Positions 27,192-38,433 of a DNA stretch of 64,000 bases are shown here, piece after piece. The DNA lies in contig JALOLF010000012.1 of assembly GCA_025456085.1 (NCBI GenBank), positions 1 to 64,000 of the forward strand, written 5' to 3'. The notes below the pieces were generated by a model. The model ran no database searches and had not been told where the DNA came from. It saw nothing but the letters and a program-made list of their open reading frames with translations. The DNA is from Acidimicrobiales bacterium (GTDB lineage: Bacteria; Actinomycetota; Acidimicrobiia; Acidimicrobiales; Acidimicrobilacustridaceae). Every line of letters starts with the position of its first letter. Positions within the stretch are counted from its first letter, which is position 1. Made by a program: the position numbers and the translations under genes.

Positions 27192-27916
27192 GGGCGCTGC
27201 GCGCCCAGCTGCGCGCCGAGCTCGTGCTGAGCCTGCGCCAGGGCGAACAGCTCCTGGTGAGCCTGGGCATCCCCTTCGGCCTGCTCGTGTTCTTCTCGCT
27301 CGTCGACGTGCTGCCCTTGCCCGACGGGGTGGACGACCCGGTGCAGTTCCTGGCTCCGGGCATCCTGGCTCTGGCCGTCATGTCGGTCGCCATGGTCAGC
27401 CTGGGCATCGGCACCGGGTTCGAGCGGGAGTACCGGGTGCTGAAGCGCCTGGGCTCGACGCCGCTGGGCCGTCCCCGCCTCGTCGCCGCCAAGATCGCCA
27501 TGGTGCTGGCGATCGAGGCGCTGCAGATCGCGATCCTGGTTCCAACGGCCCTCGCGCTCGGCTGGGACCCGTCGCCGACGACCCCGCTGGCCCTGGTGGG
27601 TGTCGTCGCGGGCACCGCGGCGTTCGCCGGCATCGGCCTGCTCATGGCGGGCAGCCTGCGTGGGCCGCTCACGCTGGCGCTCGCCAACGCCGTCTACCTG
27701 GTGCTCCTGCTGCTGGGCGACATGATCATCCCGCTCGAGGACCTGCCCGCCACCCTGGCGACGATCGCCGAGCTTTTGCCCGCCGCGGCGCTGTCGGAGG
27801 TGCTGCGAGGAGCGCTGACCGAGGGCCAGTCCGCCGGGGCTCAGGCCTGGCTGGTCCTGGTGGCCTGGGCGGTGGCGGCACCGGTCGCGGCGGCCTCCAC
27901 GTTCCGCTGGGACTGA
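27188..27916 (+). CDS. ABC-2 type transporter permease
   Basis: This 242-residue integral membrane protein has about six helices, with the ABC-2 pattern: a cytoplasmic N-terminus (LRAELVLSLRQGEQLLVSLG), the conserved FEREYRVLKRLGSTPLGRPRLVAAK loop between helices 2 and 3, and LADMIIP-like text (LGDMIIPLEDLP) near helix 5. It pairs with the ATPase encoded immediately upstream, coupled by ATGA. Its 3' end overlaps the convergent ctaG gene by 76 bp, which is long for this window but both C-termini look real. Confidence 0.9.
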
Positions 27917-28788
27917 GCGTCCGCCGCCGGTGCCGGGGCCGGGTCCTCCCCCGCGCCGATCCCGTCCTCGAGGCGCACGATGCGCGCCGGCGACGTGGTG
28001 CGCTCCTGGCCCAGGGCCCAGCGGAAGAACAGCACCACGATGATGCCCCACAGGTACATGCCGCCACCCACCTTCATGAACAGCCCCGCATACTGCTGGT
28101 CCTCGGTGACGGTCACCCCCCAGATCCGCTCGCTCGTGTCGTACACCGAGTAGACGGCCCGTTCGGCCAGGGTGAGCCACGCCCCCGGCACGGTCGGGAT
28201 CACCGACAGCAGGAACAGGTACACCATCTGCGCCGGCACCGAGATGCGCAGCTCGGGCCACGGGCCGCACACCGGCGTCCACACCAGGAACGCCGAGGCG
28301 ACGATCACGGTGTGCACGACGTAGTGGAAGGGCCCCACCTCCACGGAGGTGTTGACCACGACCGTCCAGTGGGTGGCGATGGTCAGGGCGTTGAACACGA
28401 TGGCCGCCACCACCGGGTGGGCGAGGCGGCGGAGCCACGGGTACAGCCCGCTCCCTGGGGGCACGACGAGGCGGGCCAGCCAGGTGGGGATGGCCAGCAG
28501 GAACAGCGGCGGCATGACGTAGGTGAGCAGGAAGTGCTGCACCATGTGCATGCTGTACAGGTACTGCTCGGCCAGGTCGTGCATGGGCCAGTCCGAGCCC
28601 AGCCACAGCACCAGCACGCCGGCGGTGAAGAAGGCCTTCTGGCGGAACGTCGCCACGGGCTCCCCGGGCTCGACGACCTTCGGCCCGATCACCCGCGTGG
28701 CGTACAGACCCAGCCCGACGACGCAGGCCACGAGCAGCCACACCTCGGGGTGGGCCTGCCAGCGCAGCGGGTCGGCCTGGGCGAGCAC
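27841..28788 (-). CDS. ctaG: Cytochrome c oxidase assembly protein CtaG (caa3 type)
   Basis: This 315-residue protein with about seven membrane helices belongs to the CtaG family of caa3 oxidases (not the Cox11-like CtaG), thought to deliver copper to the CuB site. Conserved segments include HDLAEQYLYSMHMVQHFLLTYV with its histidines, ATHWTVVVN, HYVVHTVIV and EDQQYAGLFMKVGGGMYLW. It is the last gene of the cta operon, 8 bp after ctaF. The start is GTG at 28788. The C-terminal Ala/Thr-rich tail overlaps the exporter permease gene on the other strand. Confidence 0.9.
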   Translation of the reverse strand: MLAQADPLRWQAHPEVWLLVACVVGLGLYATRVIGPKVVEPGEPVATFRQKAFFTAGVLVLWLGSDWPMHDLAEQYLYSMHMVQHFLLTYVMPPLFLLAIPTWLARLVVPPGSGLYPWLRRLAHPVVAAIVFNALTIATHWTVVVNTSVEVGPFHYVVHTVIVASAFLVWTPVCGPWPELRISVPAQMVYLFLLSVIPTVPGAWLTLAERAVYSVYDTSERIWGVTVTEDQQYAGLFMKVGGGMYLWGIIVVLFFRWALGQERTTSPARIVRLEDGIGAGEDPAPAPAADAQSQRNVEAAATGAATAQATRTSQA

Positions 28789-28795
28789 GATCAGC

Positions 28796-29176
28796 TCACA
28801 ACGGCGACATGTGGCCGCCGCTGTCGAAGATGCGGAACGCCAGCAGCACAGCGATGTAGACGAGCAGGGCGAGGGCCAGACCGGAGTAGAAGATCCCGCT
28901 CAGCAGCTTCTTGTCGAAGCGCAGGTGCATGAAGAACCCGGCGACCATCCAGAACTTGACCGCCATGAGCAGCATGAGCACGGAGATCACACCGAAGTTC
29001 TCGTGGTCGCCCCAGCCCCAGCCCCACAGGACGAAGTCCTCGGCGAAGTAGGTCGCGACCTCGATGGCGGTCAGCGCGGCCAGCACCAGGGCCACGATGA
29101 CGTAGAGCTTCTCGCGCTCGACGTCGTCGTGCGGCGGCGCGGCGTCGGTGGCGTTGTCGGCGGTGAGCGTGGACAT
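28796..29176 (-). CDS. ctaF: Cytochrome c oxidase subunit IV (prokaryotic type)
   Basis: This 126-residue small subunit of the terminal oxidase has three hydrophobic helices, with LYVIVALVLAALTAIEVATYF, then LMLLMAVKFWMVAGFFMHLRFD, a hallmark of this subunit, and a final LALALLVYIAVLLAFRI. It stabilises the CuB centre in related oxidases. An AGGAGC ribosome site precedes the ATG. It lies between ctaE and ctaG in the same direction. Confidence 0.9.
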   Translation of the reverse strand: MSTLTADNATDAAPPHDDVEREKLYVIVALVLAALTAIEVATYFAEDFVLWGWGWGDHENFGVISVLMLLMAVKFWMVAGFFMHLRFDKKLLSGIFYSGLALALLVYIAVLLAFRIFDSGGHMSPL

Positions 29177-29187
29177 CGGCGCTGCTC

Positions 29188-29832
29188 CTAGGAAGCCACG
29201 GGGATGAGGTAGACGATGGCGAAGATCACGATCCAGACCACGTCGACGAAGTGCCAGTAGAGGCCCACCGTCTCGACGGCCTCGGCGCGCTCCTGGTTCA
29301 GCATCCCGCGGAACGAGAACCACACCAGCGACAGCAACATGATGATGCCCGCCGTGACGTGCACACCGTGGAAGCCGGTGAGCGTGTAGAAGGCCGAGCT
29401 GAACCGGTTGGTGGTGTAGCCCAGGCCCTCCTCGTAGAAGGCGTTGAACTCGTAGATCTGGCCCGAGATGAAGATGGCACCCAGGCCTGCGGTGGCGGCG
29501 AGCCAGATGCGGTTGCCCCGCAGGTCGCCCTTCTCGATGGCGGCGACGGCCAGCACCATGGTGAGCGAGCTCATCAGCAGCACGAACGAGCTCACCGAGG
29601 TGAAGGGGATGTCGAACAGGTCCGTTCCGGGGCCGGTCCCCGGCAGGGGATCCTTGTAGAGCAGGAAGGTCGTGATCAGCCCGCCGAAGAGCAGGCAGTC
29701 CGAGCCCAGGAAGAGCCACATCGCCAGCTTGGTGTTGGAGATGCCGGTGTTCGTCGGGTACCCCGGGCCGCCGTGGGCGACGTCGAGGTCGGGCATGGGG
29801 GCGAACAGGTCCGGCGCCGTCGAGCTAGCCAA
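29188..29832 (-). CDS. ctaE: Cytochrome c oxidase subunit III
   Basis: This 214-residue subunit has about five membrane helices with the subunit III patterns KLAMWLFLGSDCLLFGGLI, FNAFYEEG, LTGFHGVHVTAG and YWHFVDVVWIVIF with conserved His and Glu. The start is probably TTG at 29832: a perfect AAGGAGG lies 9 nt upstream, inside the end of ctaD, and the first codons overlap the ctaD stop. ATG at 29796 is the alternative but has no ribosome site. It partners the active subunit I encoded upstream. Confidence 0.92.
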   Translation of the reverse strand: MASSTAPDLFAPMPDLDVAHGGPGYPTNTGISNTKLAMWLFLGSDCLLFGGLITTFLLYKDPLPGTGPGTDLFDIPFTSVSSFVLLMSSLTMVLAVAAIEKGDLRGNRIWLAATAGLGAIFISGQIYEFNAFYEEGLGYTTNRFSSAFYTLTGFHGVHVTAGIIMLLSLVWFSFRGMLNQERAEAVETVGLYWHFVDVVWIVIFAIVYLIPVAS

Positions 29833-31849
29833 CGGTCTCGACCTCCTTGTCACGCGTGGGGAGGGGCTCGGCACCGGGTTCGATCTCCCGGTCACCGGTG
29901 GGGAGCTCTTCCGGCTCGTGGTCGTGGCCGTGCGCCCGCTCCGGGTCGTCCGGCGGCTCGAGGAGCCAGCCGTAGATGCCCACGATGATGACCAGACCGC
30001 CCAGGAGAGCCAGCCACAGGCTGTAGATGAGGCCGTAGCCGAGGAAGGGCAGGCCGATGGCGATCACCAGTGGCCAGTACGAGGGCGAGGGCAGGTGCAC
30101 ATCGGTGGCGTCACCGGCCTGCACGAGATCCTCGGTCTTGGCGATCCGCACCAGGCGGCCGTCCTCGGTCTCGCCGTACTTGCGGTACCAGAAGTCGTCC
30201 ACGTGGGTGATCGTGGGGATCGGCTCGTAGTTGTAGGCCGGCGGCGGCGACTGGATCATCCACTCGATGGTGCGCGCGTCCCACGGGTCGGGCCCGGGGG
30301 GCGGGAGGTCCTTCGCCTTCTTCTTGCTCCAGAAGATGTTGAAGATGAACATCGCCACGCTGGTGGCGAGGGTGAAGGCCCCGATGGTGGCGATCTTGTT
30401 CCAGAGCTCGAAGCCGTAGCCGGCGTCGTAGGTGTAGATGCGCCGGCTCATGCCCTGCAGGCCCAGGATGTGCATCGGGCCGAACGTGAGGTTGAACCCG
30501 AGCAGCATGACCCAGAAGTTCCACTTGCCCAGCGACTCGTTCAGCCGGTAGCCGAAGACCTTGGGCCAGTAGAAGTAGAAGCCGCCCATGAAGCCGAAGA
30601 AGGCACCGCCGAACAGCACGTAGTGGAAGTGGGCGACGATGTAGTACGTGTCGGTCTGCTGGGTGTCGGCCGGCGCGATGGCGTGGCTCACACCGGACAG
30701 GCCACCGATGGTGAACATCGTGATCAGGCCGATGGAGAACAGCATCGGCGTGTCGAAGCGCAACCTGCCACCCCACATGGTGGCGGTCCAGTTGAGGATC
30801 TTCACGCCGGTGGGCACGGCGATGAACATCGTGGTCAGCGAGAACACGGTCACCGACACCGGACCGATGCCCGACACGAACATGTGGTGGGCCCACACGC
30901 CCCAGCCCATGAAGCCGATGGCCACGCCCGAGAACACGATGAACGGGTAGCCGAAGATCGGCTTGCGGCTGAACACCGGGAGCATGTCCGACACCAGGCC
31001 GAAGGAGGGCAGGATCATCAGGTACACCTCGGGGTGCCCGAAGATCCAGAAGAGGTGCTCCCACAGCAGCGGACTGCCGCCCTGGGAGACGTCGAAGAAG
31101 TTGGCGTCGAAGAGCCGGTCGAACATGAGCAGGAACAGCGCCACGGTGATGACCGGGAGGGCGAACACCAGCAGGAACTGGGTCACCAGGGTCATCCAGG
31201 TGAAGATGGGCATCTTCATGAGCGTCATGCCCGGGGCCCGCATGTTCAGCACCGTGACGATCAGGTTGATCGAGCCCACGGTCGAGGCGATGCCGGTCAT
31301 GATCAGGCCGAGCACCCAGAAGTCGATGCCGTGGGTGGGCGAGAACTGCACGCCGTTGTTGGGTGCGTACATGAACCAGCCACCGTCGGCGCCACCGCCG
31401 AGCAACCAGCTCGAGTTCAGGAAGATCCCGCCGGCGAGGAAGCACCAGTAGCTGAGGGCGTTCATGCGGGGGAACGCCACGTCGCGGGCGCCGATCTGCA
31501 GCGGGATCAGGTAGTTGGCGAAGGCGGCACCGATCGGCATCACCACGAGGAACACCATGGTGGTGCCGTGCATGGTGAAGACCTCGTTGTAGTTCTCCGC
31601 GCTCAGCAGCGTGGAGCGGGGCGCCCACAGCTGGGCGCGGATCAACAGGGCCTCGAGGCCGCCGACGATCAGGAAGAAGATGGCTGTCGCCCCGTAGAGG
31701 ATGCCGATCTTCTTGTGGTCGACCGTGGAGATCCACGACCGCCAGCCGGTGGCGGTCCGCGGCCGGGTGAAGACCCCCAGCGGCGAGTCGTTCGCCGCCG
31801 CTGGTTCGCCGGACGGCAGTGCGAGCGGTTCGGCTTCGGTCAGCGCCAT
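29825..31849 (-). CDS. ctaD: Cytochrome c oxidase subunit I (catalytic, haem-copper)
   Basis: This 674-residue type A haem-copper oxidase subunit reduces O2 to water and pumps protons. All metal ligands are present: His94 (MHGTT) and His409 for haem a, His272 of GHPEVY and His321/His322 for CuB, and His407 for haem a3 in VAHFHYV. Tyr276 of HPEVY is the cross-linked residue and Glu274 the proton-channel Glu. It is about 100 residues longer than usual; the extra C-terminus has two helices (YWPLVIAIGLPFLGYGL and a second) and a His/Asp/Glu-rich tail with HGHDHEPEE. Confidence 0.97.
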   Translation of the reverse strand: MALTEAEPLALPSGEPAAANDSPLGVFTRPRTATGWRSWISTVDHKKIGILYGATAIFFLIVGGLEALLIRAQLWAPRSTLLSAENYNEVFTMHGTTMVFLVVMPIGAAFANYLIPLQIGARDVAFPRMNALSYWCFLAGGIFLNSSWLLGGGADGGWFMYAPNNGVQFSPTHGIDFWVLGLIMTGIASTVGSINLIVTVLNMRAPGMTLMKMPIFTWMTLVTQFLLVFALPVITVALFLLMFDRLFDANFFDVSQGGSPLLWEHLFWIFGHPEVYLMILPSFGLVSDMLPVFSRKPIFGYPFIVFSGVAIGFMGWGVWAHHMFVSGIGPVSVTVFSLTTMFIAVPTGVKILNWTATMWGGRLRFDTPMLFSIGLITMFTIGGLSGVSHAIAPADTQQTDTYYIVAHFHYVLFGGAFFGFMGGFYFYWPKVFGYRLNESLGKWNFWVMLLGFNLTFGPMHILGLQGMSRRIYTYDAGYGFELWNKIATIGAFTLATSVAMFIFNIFWSKKKAKDLPPPGPDPWDARTIEWMIQSPPPAYNYEPIPTITHVDDFWYRKYGETEDGRLVRIAKTEDLVQAGDATDVHLPSPSYWPLVIAIGLPFLGYGLIYSLWLALLGGLVIIVGIYGWLLEPPDDPERAHGHDHEPEELPTGDREIEPGAEPLPTRDKEVETVG

Positions 31850-31907: not shown

Positions 31908-33161
31908 TCACTTCAGGGAGTTCAGGTAGGCGACCAGGGCGTCGATCTGGTCCTCGCCGAGGCCCAGGTTGGGCATGCCACGGCCGTCGTCGGCCGCCAT
32001 CGGCTTCATGACCGTCGGGTCGCGCAGCCAGTCTTCCAGATCCACGTTGTAGGCCGGGTTGGCCGGGTTGCCGGGCAGTGCCTCGTCCTCGGGGTCGCCG
32101 CAGTTCTGAGCCACGTTCTCGCCGGCTCGACAGGCGGCGACCTCCTCGGGCGTGGCGCCCGGCTTGTCCGGGTAGTGGCTGTTGAAGATCGAACCGGCGA
32201 AGGTGCCACGGCTCGAGAAGTGCGTCAGGTCCGGGGCGATGCCCGACACCAACAGGCTCTCCACGCCGGACTCCGGGTCCGCGACCTTCTCGTCGTTGAC
32301 CCCCCGGATGAGGTGGCAGGACGAGCACAGCTGGTTCAGGTACACGTCCTTGCCCTCGGCTGCGAGGGAGCCTTCCTCGGGCTCGACGGCCGGCTCGAGC
32401 TGGTTGGCCAGCCAGGCGTTGTACTCCGCCCGGGGAAGGGCCCGCACCAGCATGCGCATGTTGGCGTGGGACAAGCCGCAGAACTCGGTGCACTGCCCGC
32501 GGTAGACGCCGGGCTCGTCGGCCTGGATCTTCCAGAAGTTCCGCATCCCGGGCACGGCGTCCTTCTTGCCGTTCAGTTCGGGGATCCAGTAGCTGTGGAT
32601 GACGTCGTTGCCGGTGGTGTAGATCTCCACCACCGTGTCCTCGGGGATCACCAGCTCCGTGGCGGTGATCAGGTCGTTCTCGGGGTCGTCGTAGACGCCG
32701 TCGTCGTTGAGGTCGTAGCGGAAGGCCCACCACCACTGCTGGCCCTCGACCTGCACCTTCATGGCGTCGGGCTCGCGGGCCTCGAGGTCGGCGATGGTGG
32801 CCACGGTCAGCACGGCGACCACCAGCAGGATGGCGGCGGGAGCGAGGGTCCAACCGATCTCCAGCACGGTGTTGCCGTGCAGTTGCGCGGGGATCTCGTC
32901 CTCGTCGGGGCGCTCCCGGAACCGGAAGGCGATGTAGAGCACGGCCCCCATGACCAGCACCAGGATCACCCCGGCGATGATGAACACCGGACTCACCAGG
33001 TTCTGGATGGTCTGGGCGTACTGGCCCCGCGGGGAGAGGGTGGTGAGGGGTTTGCCGTCGTTGTCGAAGATCGACGCCCACACCTGGGACACGACAAGGG
33101 CGGTGATCACCAGGACGACGAAGCCGCCGAATAGGGACCGCAAGCGGTGCTTGCCTTTCAC
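31908..33161 (-). CDS. ctaC: Cytochrome c oxidase subunit II with fused cytochrome c (caa3)
   Basis: This 417-residue subunit has two N-terminal membrane helices and a cupredoxin domain with the CuA site GQCTEFCGLSHANM (plus an upstream His in VIHSYWIPEL). A C-terminal cytochrome c follows, with CSSCH (Cys279, Cys282, His283) and a distal Met in the region GRGMPNLG. The fusion makes this a caa3 oxidase. The stretch between the haem motif and the distal Met is long and Cys-containing. GTG at 33161 has a strong AGGAGAG ribosome site. Electrons enter from the quinol-cytochrome c reductase, which is not in the window. Confidence 0.95.
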   Translation of the reverse strand: MKGKHRLRSLFGGFVVLVITALVVSQVWASIFDNDGKPLTTLSPRGQYAQTIQNLVSPVFIIAGVILVLVMGAVLYIAFRFRERPDEDEIPAQLHGNTVLEIGWTLAPAAILLVVAVLTVATIADLEAREPDAMKVQVEGQQWWWAFRYDLNDDGVYDDPENDLITATELVIPEDTVVEIYTTGNDVIHSYWIPELNGKKDAVPGMRNFWKIQADEPGVYRGQCTEFCGLSHANMRMLVRALPRAEYNAWLANQLEPAVEPEEGSLAAEGKDVYLNQLCSSCHLIRGVNDEKVADPESGVESLLVSGIAPDLTHFSSRGTFAGSIFNSHYPDKPGATPEEVAACRAGENVAQNCGDPEDEALPGNPANPAYNVDLEDWLRDPTVMKPMAADDGRGMPNLGLGEDQIDALVAYLNSLK

Positions 33162-33244: not shown

Positions 33245-34081
33245 CTACTCGCTGTGCTCGGTGTCGGCGCCGTGCTTCTCGAAGTCTCGAGCGCCCTCGG
33301 ACAACCCGAACACGCCGGCGGCGAAGACCAGGACGACGCCCACCACCGCCAGCACCACGATCACGTTCTTGCTGACCTTGGGCAGCAGCGCCAGCGCCGC
33401 CATCACCAGGAACAGCAGCAGTGCCGCGATGCCGAAGATGGCCGTCGAGGCGTCCTTGTTCACGGCCAGCAGGAGCCGGGAGATGCCGTAGCCGAAGGCG
33501 ACGACGCCCACGACGGCCAGCACCGGCACCCGCACCGGGTCGATGAACTTGTGGTAGATCTCGAGGTTGGTCGTGTCGTCGCCCGTCGAGCTCTCGGCCC
33601 AGGCACGCAGCGCCCAGAGGAGCAGGGCGATGACCACTGCGACGATGCCGCCCCGGAAGAAGGCCTGGTTCGTGCCCGCGTCCGATCCGGCCAGCCCGAC
33701 GGCGACGGCGGCCAGCCCGAGAGCGCCGATCAGCGGGGCGTAGCTCGAACCGGCCGGCGGCCGGGTGCGCGGCACGCGCTCCACCTGCACCAGGGAGGCC
33801 TGGGCGTCGGGATCGGCGTCGCGGCTGGCGATGAGCACACCGGCCAGGCCGGCGGCGACGACAGCCACGCTGAGCAGCAGCACGTAGGTGAGGTGACTGC
33901 CGACGGAGCCCTTCCAGCCGAGGCTGATCGGGCCGAGCACCAGGTCGAGGACGCCGACGTCGTCGAGCGACTGCTCGTCGAGCGTGGTGGAGATGGCGGT
34001 GACCAGCGCGAACACCAGCGACCAGATGGCGAGACCCGTATAGAAGCGGAACGCCGGGGTGAACAAGCGGGAGCGGAACAT
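33245..34081 (-). CDS. Unrecognised multispan membrane protein in cta operon
   Basis: This 278-residue protein has seven or so predicted hydrophobic helices separated by short polar loops, beginning MFRSRLFTPAFRFYTGLAIW. There are no Cys residues and no metal motif. The only His are in EIYHKFIDP, GSHLTYVL and the acidic tail EKHGADTEHSE. I do not recognise the family. It lies 5 bp downstream of a subunit III paralogue and 83 bp upstream of ctaC, so it belongs to the same transcript. A structural or assembly role for the neighbouring subunit I-like protein is inference. Confidence 0.8.
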   Translation of the reverse strand: MFRSRLFTPAFRFYTGLAIWSLVFALVTAISTTLDEQSLDDVGVLDLVLGPISLGWKGSVGSHLTYVLLLSVAVVAAGLAGVLIASRDADPDAQASLVQVERVPRTRPPAGSSYAPLIGALGLAAVAVGLAGSDAGTNQAFFRGGIVAVVIALLLWALRAWAESSTGDDTTNLEIYHKFIDPVRVPVLAVVGVVAFGYGISRLLLAVNKDASTAIFGIAALLLFLVMAALALLPKVSKNVIVVLAVVGVVLVFAAGVFGLSEGARDFEKHGADTEHSE

Positions 34082-34086
34082 GGGGC

Positions 34087-34683
34087 CTACTTCGTGACGA
34101 AGATCGAGATCCAGATCAGCGCGTAGAGCGCAACCATGGTGTGCCAGTAGAGGGCGGCGGCCGAGATCCCGTCGTGCTGGCGGCTGGTGAACTGCCCGCC
34201 CAGGGCACGGAAGGAGATGACAGCCAGATAGGTCATGGCAGCGAGGAGCATCACCAGATGCGCTCCGCTGACGGTGTAGAGGAGCACGGCCTGGGAGGTC
34301 TCGGCCGGCAGTGCCATCTTGTTGTAGAAGAAGTACATCAGGTTCACGGTGGCGAACCCGAGCAGGAAGGTCAGGCCGATCGCCAGGTAGGTGTGGACCC
34401 GGTCGTTGCGGCCGATGGCGTCGACGGCCCACTGCACCAGCGCAGAGGACATCAGCAGCGTGAACAGCGCCATCGTGGGCTGGGTGAGCGGGATGACCGT
34501 GCCCTCGGGCAGCCAGGTCCCGCCCCCGGCGAGGACCGCGCCTCGCTGGGCCAGGTAGATCCCCAGCACGCCGAGGATGCCCAGCGCCGAGGCGGCGGCG
34601 GCGAAGGCGGTGCCGATGAGGGCGACCCGGGGTCGGGCGACGGGTGCGGCGGGGGCCTCACCCGGCAACAGGGCGACAGCCAT
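34087..34683 (-). CDS. Second cytochrome c oxidase subunit III paralogue
   Basis: This 198-residue protein has about five hydrophobic helices and the subunit III end (SGAHLVMLLAAMTYL, ALYWHTMVALYALIWISIF). It is diverged: the acidic residue in the first helix pair that shapes the proton-uptake region in subunit III is not obvious, and the N-terminal ALLPGEAPAAPVARPRV is new. The start ATG overlaps the stop of the subunit I-like gene (TGATG). It is paired with that paralogue, not with ctaD. Confidence 0.82.
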   Translation of the reverse strand: MAVALLPGEAPAAPVARPRVALIGTAFAAAASALGILGVLGIYLAQRGAVLAGGGTWLPEGTVIPLTQPTMALFTLLMSSALVQWAVDAIGRNDRVHTYLAIGLTFLLGFATVNLMYFFYNKMALPAETSQAVLLYTVSGAHLVMLLAAMTYLAVISFRALGGQFTSRQHDGISAAALYWHTMVALYALIWISIFVTK

Positions 34684-36290
34684 CAGGACTCCTTCCCGGT
34701 CTCGTCGAGCAGCGGCTCGGCGGAGTCGACCGACGGCTGGGTGGCGAAGTTGCCCCGCGCCGGCGGCGACGCCGTGGCCCACTCGAGGGTCTGGCCGACC
34801 CCCCAGGCGTCGGGCTCGTCGGTGCCCCGGGCGCCGAGCAGGGCGACGGCGACGGCCAGGAGTCCGACGACCACCAGGGCGGCGCCGCCGGCGCTGGCCA
34901 CGAAGAAGACATCCGAGGCGTCGGCCAGCGGCTCGAGCTCGTTGCCGAGCCCGACGAGCAGGAGGGGCAGGCCGTGCAGCAGCCCGCCGACGAGCAGCAG
35001 CAGACCGGCGAGCTTGCCGAGGCCGTCGGCGGCCCTGCGCCCGGAGATCTTGGGCGACCAGAAGAGCAGGGCGGCAGCGGCACCCAGCATGCCGACCGTC
35101 GCGGCGAGGGCGGCGACGCCCCACGAGTAGATCGACGAGCCCACCATGGCGTCCGCGAGCTGACCGAGGTTCTCGAGGAACTCCGAGGCGTCCTGGAGCT
35201 GCAGCGAGTCGAGCACGAACGGAGCCGACAGCAGCACTGCGACCACGAGGGCGACGGTGCCGAAGAGGCCGGTCAGCGCCGGCGACGAGAGCTTGACCTT
35301 GCCCACCATGACGCTGTGGATCCAACCCGCCGCCAGCACCATGGCGGGCACGATCAGCAGCAGTGACTGCAGCACGTAGACCGGCTGGGTTCGTATCGGT
35401 TCGACGAAGGCGGCCTGGGCGTAGGGAGCGATGGTGAACACGCCGAACGCCGCGATGGCGTGCATCATGAGCGCCCGGTGGGCCTGACGCACGCCCGCGA
35501 AGGACGCCACGGTCTCGCTGATGGCGCCCAGGGCCGGGATGGCCACGATGAACACCTGCGGCAACACGATCAGCCACGCGATCTGCGGCCATTGTGCGCT
35601 GGTGAAGGCGTCGGCGGTGCCGTACTTGAGGTCGACCCAGATCAGCACCAGGTTGCCGACCAGGACCGAGAGGCTCAGGATCCACGCCGAGCAGGCCACG
35701 ATCATCGACCACGTGAAGAGCGGTGCACGCCACAGGGTCATGCCCGCAGCCCGCTGGGTGAACGCGGTCGTGGCAACCGAGATCGACGCCAGGATGAGGC
35801 CACCCAGGATGCCCGCCAGGGCCAGGTAGAACAGGCTCACGGCCTGGGGGTCGGTGCCGTCGGGCCCGCCGTCGGTGGCGTAGCTCGCGAGCAGCAGGCC
35901 GGCACCGGCCAGCCACGTCCAGAACGAAGCGGCCGCACCCCGGGCGAACGCCAGCGTCGACGCACCGATCTGGAGCGGCACCACCACCATGGCGATGCCC
36001 AGCGCGAGCGGCACGAGGAACAGGAGCACGACGCTCAGCTGGGACAGGGTGAAGACCCGGAAGACCCAGTCGTCGGGAAGCAGGTCGGCGTCGAGGCCCT
36101 CGAGGACGTACAGCGCCGCCAACACGAAGGCGCCGACGCCGAAGATCAGCGAGGCGCCGATGTAGAGCCGGCCGATCGTCTTGTGGTCGCCGCTGCCGAA
36201 GACCTCGGCGAGGCCGCCCTGGTCGACAGGGGAGGCGTCCGATGACGAGCTCGTCGCCTCGGACTGGGGACGGGTGTCGGTGATCGCCAT
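34683..36290 (-). CDS. Haem-copper oxidase subunit I-like protein lacking all metal ligands
   Basis: This 535-residue protein aligns along its length with the ctaD product: DHKTIGRLYIGASLIF, VPLQIGASTLAFARGAAASFW, and RAAGMTLWRAPLFTW all have close partners. Yet every ligand position is changed. His94 of CtaD corresponds to Ser83; the GHPEVY motif to VLPQVF (243-247); His321/His322 to Gln292/Ala293; and the HFH motif falls in a region with no His from residue 326 to about 440. It cannot bind haem a, haem a3 or CuB in the normal way. It is intact, codon use is like its neighbours, and it is coupled to a subunit III paralogue, so it looks functional but non-catalytic. Confidence 0.85.
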   Translation of the reverse strand: MAITDTRPQSEATSSSSDASPVDQGGLAEVFGSGDHKTIGRLYIGASLIFGVGAFVLAALYVLEGLDADLLPDDWVFRVFTLSQLSVVLLFLVPLALGIAMVVVPLQIGASTLAFARGAAASFWTWLAGAGLLLASYATDGGPDGTDPQAVSLFYLALAGILGGLILASISVATTAFTQRAAGMTLWRAPLFTWSMIVACSAWILSLSVLVGNLVLIWVDLKYGTADAFTSAQWPQIAWLIVLPQVFIVAIPALGAISETVASFAGVRQAHRALMMHAIAAFGVFTIAPYAQAAFVEPIRTQPVYVLQSLLLIVPAMVLAAGWIHSVMVGKVKLSSPALTGLFGTVALVVAVLLSAPFVLDSLQLQDASEFLENLGQLADAMVGSSIYSWGVAALAATVGMLGAAAALLFWSPKISGRRAADGLGKLAGLLLLVGGLLHGLPLLLVGLGNELEPLADASDVFFVASAGGAALVVVGLLAVAVALLGARGTDEPDAWGVGQTLEWATASPPARGNFATQPSVDSAEPLLDETGKES

Positions 36291-36449: not shown

Positions 36450-37346
36450 TCACACCCCGTTGCGCACCAGGACGTCGACCGCCATGACGGCGAACAGGAG
36501 GGTCACGTAGGAGATCGAGAAGGTGAACAGACGCATGGCCCGACCCGAATCGCCGGAGCGCAGCAGGTCGACGGCCATCCACAGGAAGACCGCGCCGAGC
36601 GCGGCCGCCGTCCCGAGGTAGAGGAAGCCCAACGAGGCGGCAGGCCCGAAGACCAGGCTGAGGGCGACCACGACCACCGTGTAGGCCACGATCTTGCGTG
36701 CCGTGGCTTCGAAGCTCGCCACGGAGGGCAGCATGGGCACCGAGGCCGATGCGTAGTCGTCCTTGTAGCGGATGGCCAGCGCCCAGAAGTGGGGCGGCGT
36801 CCAGAAGAAGATGACCCCGAACAGCACGACGGGGGCCAGGGCGAGCGCGTCGGTGACGGCGGTCCAACCGATCAGGACCGGCACCGCTCCGGCCGCTCCC
36901 CCGATCACGATGTTGCTCGACGAGGTGCGCTTGAGCCAGAGGGTGTACACGAACACGTAGAACAGGCAGGCGGCCACGGCCAGCCCGGCCGACAGCAGGT
37001 TCACGAAGCGCCACAGCCACAGGAAGGCGATGACCTCGATGCTGATGGCGAACACCAGGGCACTGCGGGGCGTGATCACACCGGTGACCAGGGGCCGGTT
37101 CCGCGTCCGCTTCATCAGGGCGTCGATGTCGCGGTCCACGTACATGTTGATGGCGTTGGCGCCACCGGCAGCCAGGGTGCCGCCGACCACGGTGGCCACC
37201 ATCAGCCACACGGAGGGCAGGCCCTCCTCGGCGACGACCATCGTCGGCACCGTGGTGACCAGGAGGAGCTCGATGATGCGCGGCTTGGTGAGGGCCACGT
37301 AAGCACCCAGACGGGCGCGCAACGAGATCTCGGCCGTGGCGTACAT
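36450..37346 (-). CDS. ctaB: Protohaem IX farnesyltransferase (haem O synthase)
   Basis: This 298-residue UbiA-family prenyltransferase attaches a farnesyl group to haem b, giving haem O. It has about eight membrane helices and the Mg-diphosphate motif NAINMYVDRDIDALMKRTRNRP, with a second polar region FWALAIRYKDDYASASVPMLP. ATG at 37346 was preferred over a TTG 39 bp upstream: it begins close to the first helix and follows a -10-like TAGCGT by 8 nt. It is divergent from ctaA, which does the next step, and upstream of the subunit I paralogue gene. Confidence 0.95.
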   Translation of the reverse strand: MYATAEISLRARLGAYVALTKPRIIELLLVTTVPTMVVAEEGLPSVWLMVATVVGGTLAAGGANAINMYVDRDIDALMKRTRNRPLVTGVITPRSALVFAISIEVIAFLWLWRFVNLLSAGLAVAACLFYVFVYTLWLKRTSSSNIVIGGAAGAVPVLIGWTAVTDALALAPVVLFGVIFFWTPPHFWALAIRYKDDYASASVPMLPSVASFEATARKIVAYTVVVVALSLVFGPAASLGFLYLGTAAALGAVFLWMAVDLLRSGDSGRAMRLFTFSISYVTLLFAVMAVDVLVRNGV

Positions 37347-37494
37347 CGTCCCCAACGCTAGGCGCGCCCGGGTGAGCGACGACAATCCATCCCACCCGAG
37401 TGCGGGGCTCTGCGACGCTCCGACACGACGGAGCCCGAAGCGCCGCCCGGGCGACGGCGGTGCCCCCGCTTGGAGAGCGACGGTCTGCGAGCCC

Positions 37495-37500
37495 TACCCT
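37495..37500 (+). promoter_or_regulatory. -10 box of ctaA (leaderless)
   Basis: TACCCT lies 6 nt before the GTG at 37507, fixing that codon as the start. Confidence 0.5.
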
Positions 37501-37506
37501 GACCCC

Positions 37507-38433
37507 GTGGCCGTTCCGACCGTCTCCCCCAGGACCTTCCGGCGCATCACCGCGGTCGTGCTGTTCGCCATGACCCTGATCGTGGTCACCGGAGGAGCCG
37601 TGCGCCTGACCGGATCCGGGCTGGGCTGCTCCGACTGGCCCAACTGCCACGAGGACCAGTTCGTCCCGGCGCGGGGGTTCCACGACTGGGTCGAGTTCGG
37701 CAATCGTCTGGTCACCGGGCTCATCTCCATCCCCGTGCTCCTGGCCATCGTCGGCGCCCTGCGCCGCCGGCCGTACCGTCGGGATCTGCTCTGGTGGTCC
37801 GTGGCCATCGCGGCGGGTATCTTCGCCCAGGCGTTGGTGGGGGCCGTCGTGGTGTGGATGGAGCTGACGCCCTCGACCGTCATGGTCCACTTCCTGTTGT
37901 CGATGGTCGTCATCTGGTGTGCCGTTGTGCTGTACGAGCGTGCTCGGCAGCCGGCAACCGAACCCGTCCCGGCGGTTCCCGCCGAGGTGCGGACCATGAG
38001 CCGGCTGCTGGTGGCGTCGACGATGCTCGTGCTGTTCGTCGGCACCCTGGTGACGGGCTCGGGCCCCCACGGCGGCGACCCCGACGTGGAGCGGCTGCCC
38101 TTCGACGTCCCCGACGTCGTTCGCCTGCACAGCATCGCCGCCTGGCTCACGGTGGCGGCCGCGCTGGTGACCACGGTGATGGCCCGACGGGCCGGCGGCG
38201 CACGGGTCCTGGTCGACCGCGGCCACCAGCTGCTCGTGGTGCTGGTGCTCCAGGGCGTGATCGGCTACGCCCAGTACTTCAACGGCGTGCCAGTGGGACT
38301 GGTGGCCCTGCACCTGCTGGGTGCCTCGCTCGTGTGGATCGCCGTGGTGCGCTTCCATCTGGCGCTCGTGGTTCGCCCCGAAGAAGGCCGCGCCGACCTC
38401 TCGGCGCCCGCAGCCGCGACGGCGTCGGGGTGA
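37507..38433 (+). CDS. ctaA: Haem A synthase
   Basis: This 308-residue protein with about eight helices oxidises the C8 methyl of haem O to give haem A. Helix 1 leads to GAVRLTGSGLGCSDWPNCHED with the paired cysteines of the CtaA family, followed by histidines in the EFGNRLVTG and MVHFLLSM regions, and a second half with VVRLHSIAAWLT and LVALHLLGASL that binds the other haem. GTG at 37507 sits 6 nt after TACCCT, so it is probably leaderless. It is divergent from ctaB. Confidence 0.94.
   Translation: MAVPTVSPRTFRRITAVVLFAMTLIVVTGGAVRLTGSGLGCSDWPNCHEDQFVPARGFHDWVEFGNRLVTGLISIPVLLAIVGALRRRPYRRDLLWWSVAIAAGIFAQALVGAVVVWMELTPSTVMVHFLLSMVVIWCAVVLYERARQPATEPVPAVPAEVRTMSRLLVASTMLVLFVGTLVTGSGPHGGDPDVERLPFDVPDVVRLHSIAAWLTVAAALVTTVMARRAGGARVLVDRGHQLLVVLVLQGVIGYAQYFNGVPVGLVALHLLGASLVWIAVVRFHLALVVRPEEGRADLSAPAAATASG

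Follow-up and report, generated by a model that had tools for sequence, protein, structure and literature searches.

CydB of cytochrome bd is commonly seen as the haem-free structural counterpart of the haem-bearing subunit. LL1, the subunit I paralogue described here, resembles it as a haem-free counterpart of a haem-bearing oxidase subunit; nevertheless, CydB belongs to another superfamily and forms part of the mature enzyme, of which LL1 would be a putative member at most. In addition, a 'deranged' COX1-like protein from Acetobacter is reported to lack all of the metal-binding residues and is clustered with ctaB, as is LL1, and a role in the stabilisation of CtaB has been suggested for it (PMC10715153). 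The Acetobacter protein is alphaproteobacterial, however, and is likened to LL1 by description; moreover, the section consulted describes no paired subunit III, no subunit IV/cupredoxin partner and no graded intermediates (PMC10715153). The preliminary description of the locus, according to which no family like LL1 had been described, overlooked this protein (PMC10715153). A published account of the cassette formed by LL1, LL3 and ORF3 was not found in the literature surveyed, into which subscription journals entered only in small part.

Operon architecture

The window, the whole stretch of 64,000 nucleotides analysed, comes from a draft genome of 4.85 Mb and carries a caa3 oxidase operon on the minus strand in the order ctaB, LL1, LL3, ORF3, ctaC, ctaD, ctaE, subunit IV and ctaG. 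The biosynthetic genes at its head comprise ctaB, coding for a haem O synthase of the UbiA family (36450..37385, minus strand), directly upstream of LL1, and the divergent ctaA, coding for haem A synthase (37336..38433, plus strand). The oxidase genes, all on the minus strand, include (i) ctaC, a subunit II with a CuA domain and a cytochrome c domain (31908..33161); (ii) ctaD, the catalytic subunit I, with its six His present and a C-terminal subunit IV-like extension (29825..31849); (iii) ctaE, subunit III (29188..29895); (iv) subunit IV, of the COX4_pro type (28796..29233, coordinates without a fixed start codon); and (v) ctaG, the caa3 assembly factor (27841..28788). Between ctaB and ctaC lie the three genes of the cassette, with LL1 upstream of ctaC, as originally reported, and of ctaD; the LL1 stop and the LL3 start overlap in TGATG, and five bases separate LL3 from ORF3. 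In genome G000, the 43-residue beginning of a further COX1 gene stands at a contig end (L003, G000:C66:3223-3351), and this genome may hold a second, incompletely assembled oxidase.

Structural features of LL1

LL1 (34683..36290, minus strand) is an intact reading frame of 535 residues free of internal stops. The protein scores 124.9 bits against PF00115 (E=5e-36), where the curated cut-off is 34.8, and its predicted structure (pLDDT 85, pTM 0.91) displays the normal 12-helix fold of subunit I, superimposing onto subunit I of cytochrome bo3 and aa3 with Z 39 over 485 aligned residues. LL1 resembles CtaD of the aa3, caa3 and bo3 enzymes in its fold, its 12 helices, its cytoplasmic loops and the LEW..SPPP C-terminal motif, which is retained; it differs in the absence of all six metal ligands and of the Glu and Tyr of the HPEVY motif, so that O2 reduction is not expected.

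The preliminary description had read these replacements correctly. Aligned with the CtaD of its own operon, LL1 carries Ser83, Leu243, Gln292, Ala293, Val392 and Ala394 at the ligand positions, and residues 243-247 read LPQVF where CtaD has HPEVY, with both the Glu and the Tyr of helix VI replaced. The region of the HFH motif is free of His in every version of the alignment, although the alignment of helix X is the least certain. The whole protein contains five His (36, 271, 277, 325 and 439), none at a ligand position; judged by the six His expected of a catalytic oxygen reductase, LL1 has 0/6, and the HPEVY signature is likewise absent. In descent and predicted fold, LL1 is thus a member of the haem-copper superfamily, but in function it does not belong among the oxygen reductases.

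Conservation is distributed unevenly across the membrane. The cytoplasmic side of LL1 is more conserved than the periplasmic side (0.576 and 0.420, respectively; 0.795 and 0.815 in CtaD), the least conserved face being the one that would engage the haem propionates, CuA and cytochrome c. Within the membrane helices of LL1, none of the His, Cys or acidic residues is widely conserved among its relatives.

LL3 and ORF3

LL3 (34087..34683, minus strand, 198 residues) is a paralogue of subunit III, as revealed by alignment and by its match to the Pfam COX3 family PF00510 (E=5e-11; 43.4 bits, above the cut-off of 23.8), and the TGATG coupling that ties it to LL1 had been correctly noted. The cassette had been presented as a subunit I accompanied by a dedicated subunit III; both are indeed there, but ORF3 (33245..34081, minus strand), the third gene before ctaC, had escaped attention.

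ORF3 encodes a membrane protein of 278 residues built from two halves. The N-terminal half, residues about 9-159, is homologous to the actinobacterial CtaF (hhalign probability 96.6, E=6e-10), the CtaF-like alignment used matching PF12270; single ORF3 sequences score under the Pfam cut-off for PF12270, the similarity emerging only in the profile comparison by hhalign. Since this half is a CtaF homologue and stands beside LL1 and LL3, the cassette mirrors subunits I, III and IV. ORF3 differs from CtaF in an additional C-terminal membrane unit, followed in relatives by a cupredoxin. This C-terminal half resembles the membrane anchor of cupredoxin proteins encoded after ctaG in the caa3 operons of other actinobacterial classes (L132, L128), which differ in keeping the copper motif and in having no adjacent LL1 or LL3. 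In the window, ORF3 lacks the cupredoxin domain with its His/Cys-His-Met copper motif. A Foldseek search with the ORF3 model, the pTM of which is merely 0.58, returned no significant match.

In other actinobacterial classes and orders (L128, L132, L140, L144 and similar loci), the small gene for this membrane-anchored cupredoxin ends the caa3 operon, straight after ctaG, and its product may serve as an electron carrier or in copper delivery. In a further group of loci (L147-L153, L164 and L049, family f7, which probably includes Ilumatobacter), ORF3 carries at the position of the cupredoxin a tail with a recurring Cys, the copper motif being lost.

Distribution of the cassette

More than 50 genomes of the Acidimicrobiales share the order ctaB-LL1-LL3-ORF3-ctaC-ctaD, and the full order, extending through ctaE, subunit IV and ctaG, is conserved in 30 loci and in 23/23 further loci of the order. 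Across the class, 62 of 296 genomes encode a full-length ORF3, and all 62 show the gene order of the window. Relatives of LL1 span the whole host family and are found in numerous families of the Acidimicrobiales; those that are named come from this order, many from Microthrixaceae, Candidatus Microthrix and Aquihabitans, with Aquihabitans sp. G128 (L212) among the cultured carriers. The recurrence of three genes in one order in more than 50 genomes therefore exceeds what chance would produce.

Within the order, the presence of the cassette matches that of a caa3-type CtaD, recognised at >800 bits, almost exactly and in both directions. Among 20 genomes of the order that are free of the cassette, 19 hold other CtaD types alone (540 bits or less), and the twentieth lacks CtaD altogether. 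The exceptions to the match comprise two draft assemblies with contigs ending before the cassette (G007 and G025) and G060. In the latter (L063), LL1 and LL3 are intact, ORF3 is shortened, ctaC and ctaD do not adjoin, and a caa3-type CtaD was not detected, a state that possibly reflects erosion once the caa3 oxidase had been lost, or else an assembly error.

A profile search found no LL1 in other orders or classes, where rare copies may nevertheless exist. Matches to the LL1 profile above 400 bits do occur there; these were rejected, their scores being no higher than those of known catalytic CtaD, and the 8/8 such loci inspected encode catalytic CtaD with six His, so that the profile score alone cannot separate LL1 from CtaD. 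Four public metagenome-assembled genomes titled 'Bifidobacterium breve' (L169, L192, L195 and L208) hold the acidimicrobial operon, and their names look wrong.

Graded loss of metal ligands

The CuB triad is missing from every one of 107 distinct LL1 sequences, and 73/107 lack all six His; the caa3 CtaD sampled keep the six in 21/21 cases. The remaining LL1 forms disclose intermediate states: L050, L051, L052, L055 and L056 keep the His of helix II together with the two of helix X, a haem a3 ligand included, whereas the haem a pair is kept and the a3 ligand lost in L154, L060, L071, L206 and L234. In the tree, LL1 forms a single clade (SH-aLRT 100), in which the forms bearing haem ligands are basal: L154 branches before the rest, followed by L050-L052/L056 together with L071, then by L055 and then by L060.

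The early forms also differ in ORF3, which in L050, L051, L052, L055, L056 and L154 has at its C-terminus a cupredoxin showing a Cys-His-Met motif. This copper-motif cupredoxin accompanies 6/10 LL1 forms with haem a ligands and 0/93 others, an association that does not reach significance once descent is taken into account, because the tree provides only one independent contrast. By analogy, the copper domain of the early-branch ORF3 may occupy the place of subunit II. According to the alignment, the Arg pair that normally serves the haem propionates is missing from the early LL1 forms, so that their binding of haem is itself presumed. Given the retention of His ligands and cupredoxin at the base of the tree, the metals were apparently shed step by step from a redox complex whose membrane scaffold remained under selection.

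The ancestor might accordingly be pictured as a side complex beside the caa3 oxidase, free of CuB and bearing haem and a cupredoxin, in which the haem could swap electrons with the copper domain. The CuB ligands would have been lost first, then the a3 ligand, and later the cupredoxin and the haem a ligands, the membrane scaffold, and above all its cytoplasmic face, remaining constrained throughout. Such a series would define another kind of haem-copper-oxidase complex, one not engaged in O2 reduction, leading from early branches in which a CuB-free, haem-bearing subunit I is joined by a dedicated subunit III and a subunit IV-like/copper-domain fusion to the wholly metal-free type of the window, which would have a task other than redox chemistry alongside the caa3 oxidase; we put this forward tentatively, at somewhat less than an even chance.

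Possible roles of the cassette

The reading that we prefer, and to which we assign an even chance, is that LL1, LL3 and ORF3, which correspond to subunits I, III and IV, constitute a 'shadow oxidase', an accessory module that serves the caa3 oxidase without being catalytic, either as a set of partner subunits or as a platform for assembly. The three proteins would contact one another, and the present module would bind no haem a, haem a3, CuB or tethered copper centre; its role could be that of a pseudo-dimer partner set, or of a platform holding assembly enzymes, CtaB for example, during the delivery of haem to CtaD. Distance-matrix covariation, controlled for the other proteins of the operon, links the members of the cassette with one another (LL1-LL3 0.27, LL3-ORF3 0.24) and with the oxidase and its haem O synthase (LL1-CtaB 0.41, LL3-CtaD 0.35, ORF3-CtaD 0.37). 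Together with the conservation pattern, these sequence-derived values weakly favour a non-catalytic module acting on the caa3 oxidase; operon neighbourhood and rate covariation can both arise without physical contact. The idea of a conserved non-catalytic oxidase-like complex, raised in the preliminary description, agrees with the ligand loss and the gene order, both conserved across relatives, and with the low dN/dS. Its suggestion of an adapted proton- or quinone-binding protein found no such backing, since evidence for either was not found.

The preferred reading takes two forms. A permanent structural partner, in which the cassette products would stand beside CtaD, CtaC and CtaE in the mature enzyme as half of a pseudo-heterodimer or as a supercomplex spacer, would account for the two-way association with the caa3 CtaD, for the covariation of CtaD with LL3 and ORF3, and for the preservation of the cytoplasmic surface and of a subunit III partner; we nevertheless regard it as rather unlikely, given that LL1 covaries more strongly with CtaB than with CtaD and that LL1 and LL3 are missing from the caa3 operons of other actinobacterial classes. 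That strongest covariation, and the ctaB gene adjoining LL1 in nearly all loci, speak instead for an assembly platform, in which LL1, as a mimic of subunit I, would dock CtaB/CtaA and the cofactor machinery and pass haem to CtaD, remaining outside the mature enzyme. The CtaB-stabilising role proposed for the Acetobacter protein (PMC10715153) and the related cupredoxin anchors adjoining ctaG in other classes point the same way. However, adjacency alone may explain the covariation, and the retention of a whole I-III-IV scaffold seems beyond the needs of a docking site, so that we consider a pure platform unlikely.

An independent redox or transport complex has in its favour the haem-ligand His and the copper-motif cupredoxin of the early branches, which could transfer electrons, while in the metal-free forms protons, quinone or lipid would make use of the vacant cavity. 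We judge it distinctly improbable: the LL1 membrane helices lack broadly conserved His, Cys and acidic residues alike, the cassette is closely tied to the caa3 CtaD, and a bc-type cytochrome b is present in 18/18 genomes tested, which rules out that the early haem/cupredoxin form replaces the bc complex. As a separate observation, the cytochrome b match is short in G000 and other cassette genomes (ORF mostly about 200-340 residues), and the corresponding ORFs are longer in the cassette-free genomes tested (about 500 residues or more); each of the two CtaD types seems to come with a bc complex type of its own. Finally, a decaying paralogue surviving by chance in the operon would fit the faster evolution of LL1 (mean distance 1.41 vs 0.47 for CtaD), but its dN/dS of 0.06-0.29 across the 40 closest pairs lies near the ctaC value, the frames are intact in nearly all loci and the three genes are retained together. 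The reservation entered at the outset, that this copy alone might be mutated among relatives keeping their His ligands, fell away as well, the CuB site being kept in no relative. We thus reject a pseudogene on the grounds of dN/dS and distribution and hold decay to be extremely improbable.

Biological significance

The cassette provides a natural series in which the metal-ligand sites of a respiratory oxidase complex disappear although selection maintains the membrane scaffold across a whole bacterial order. The use of a non-catalytic subunit I scaffold, in assembly, dimerisation or CtaB docking, thereby becomes testable, and the conservation of LL1 points to a surface of subunit I that may bear the scaffold role. 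In addition, the series warns that automatic annotation of PF00115 matches as oxidases overcounts oxygen reductases. For the Acidimicrobiales, the retention of the cassette across the order suggests that the metal-free copy has a task supporting the live oxidase.
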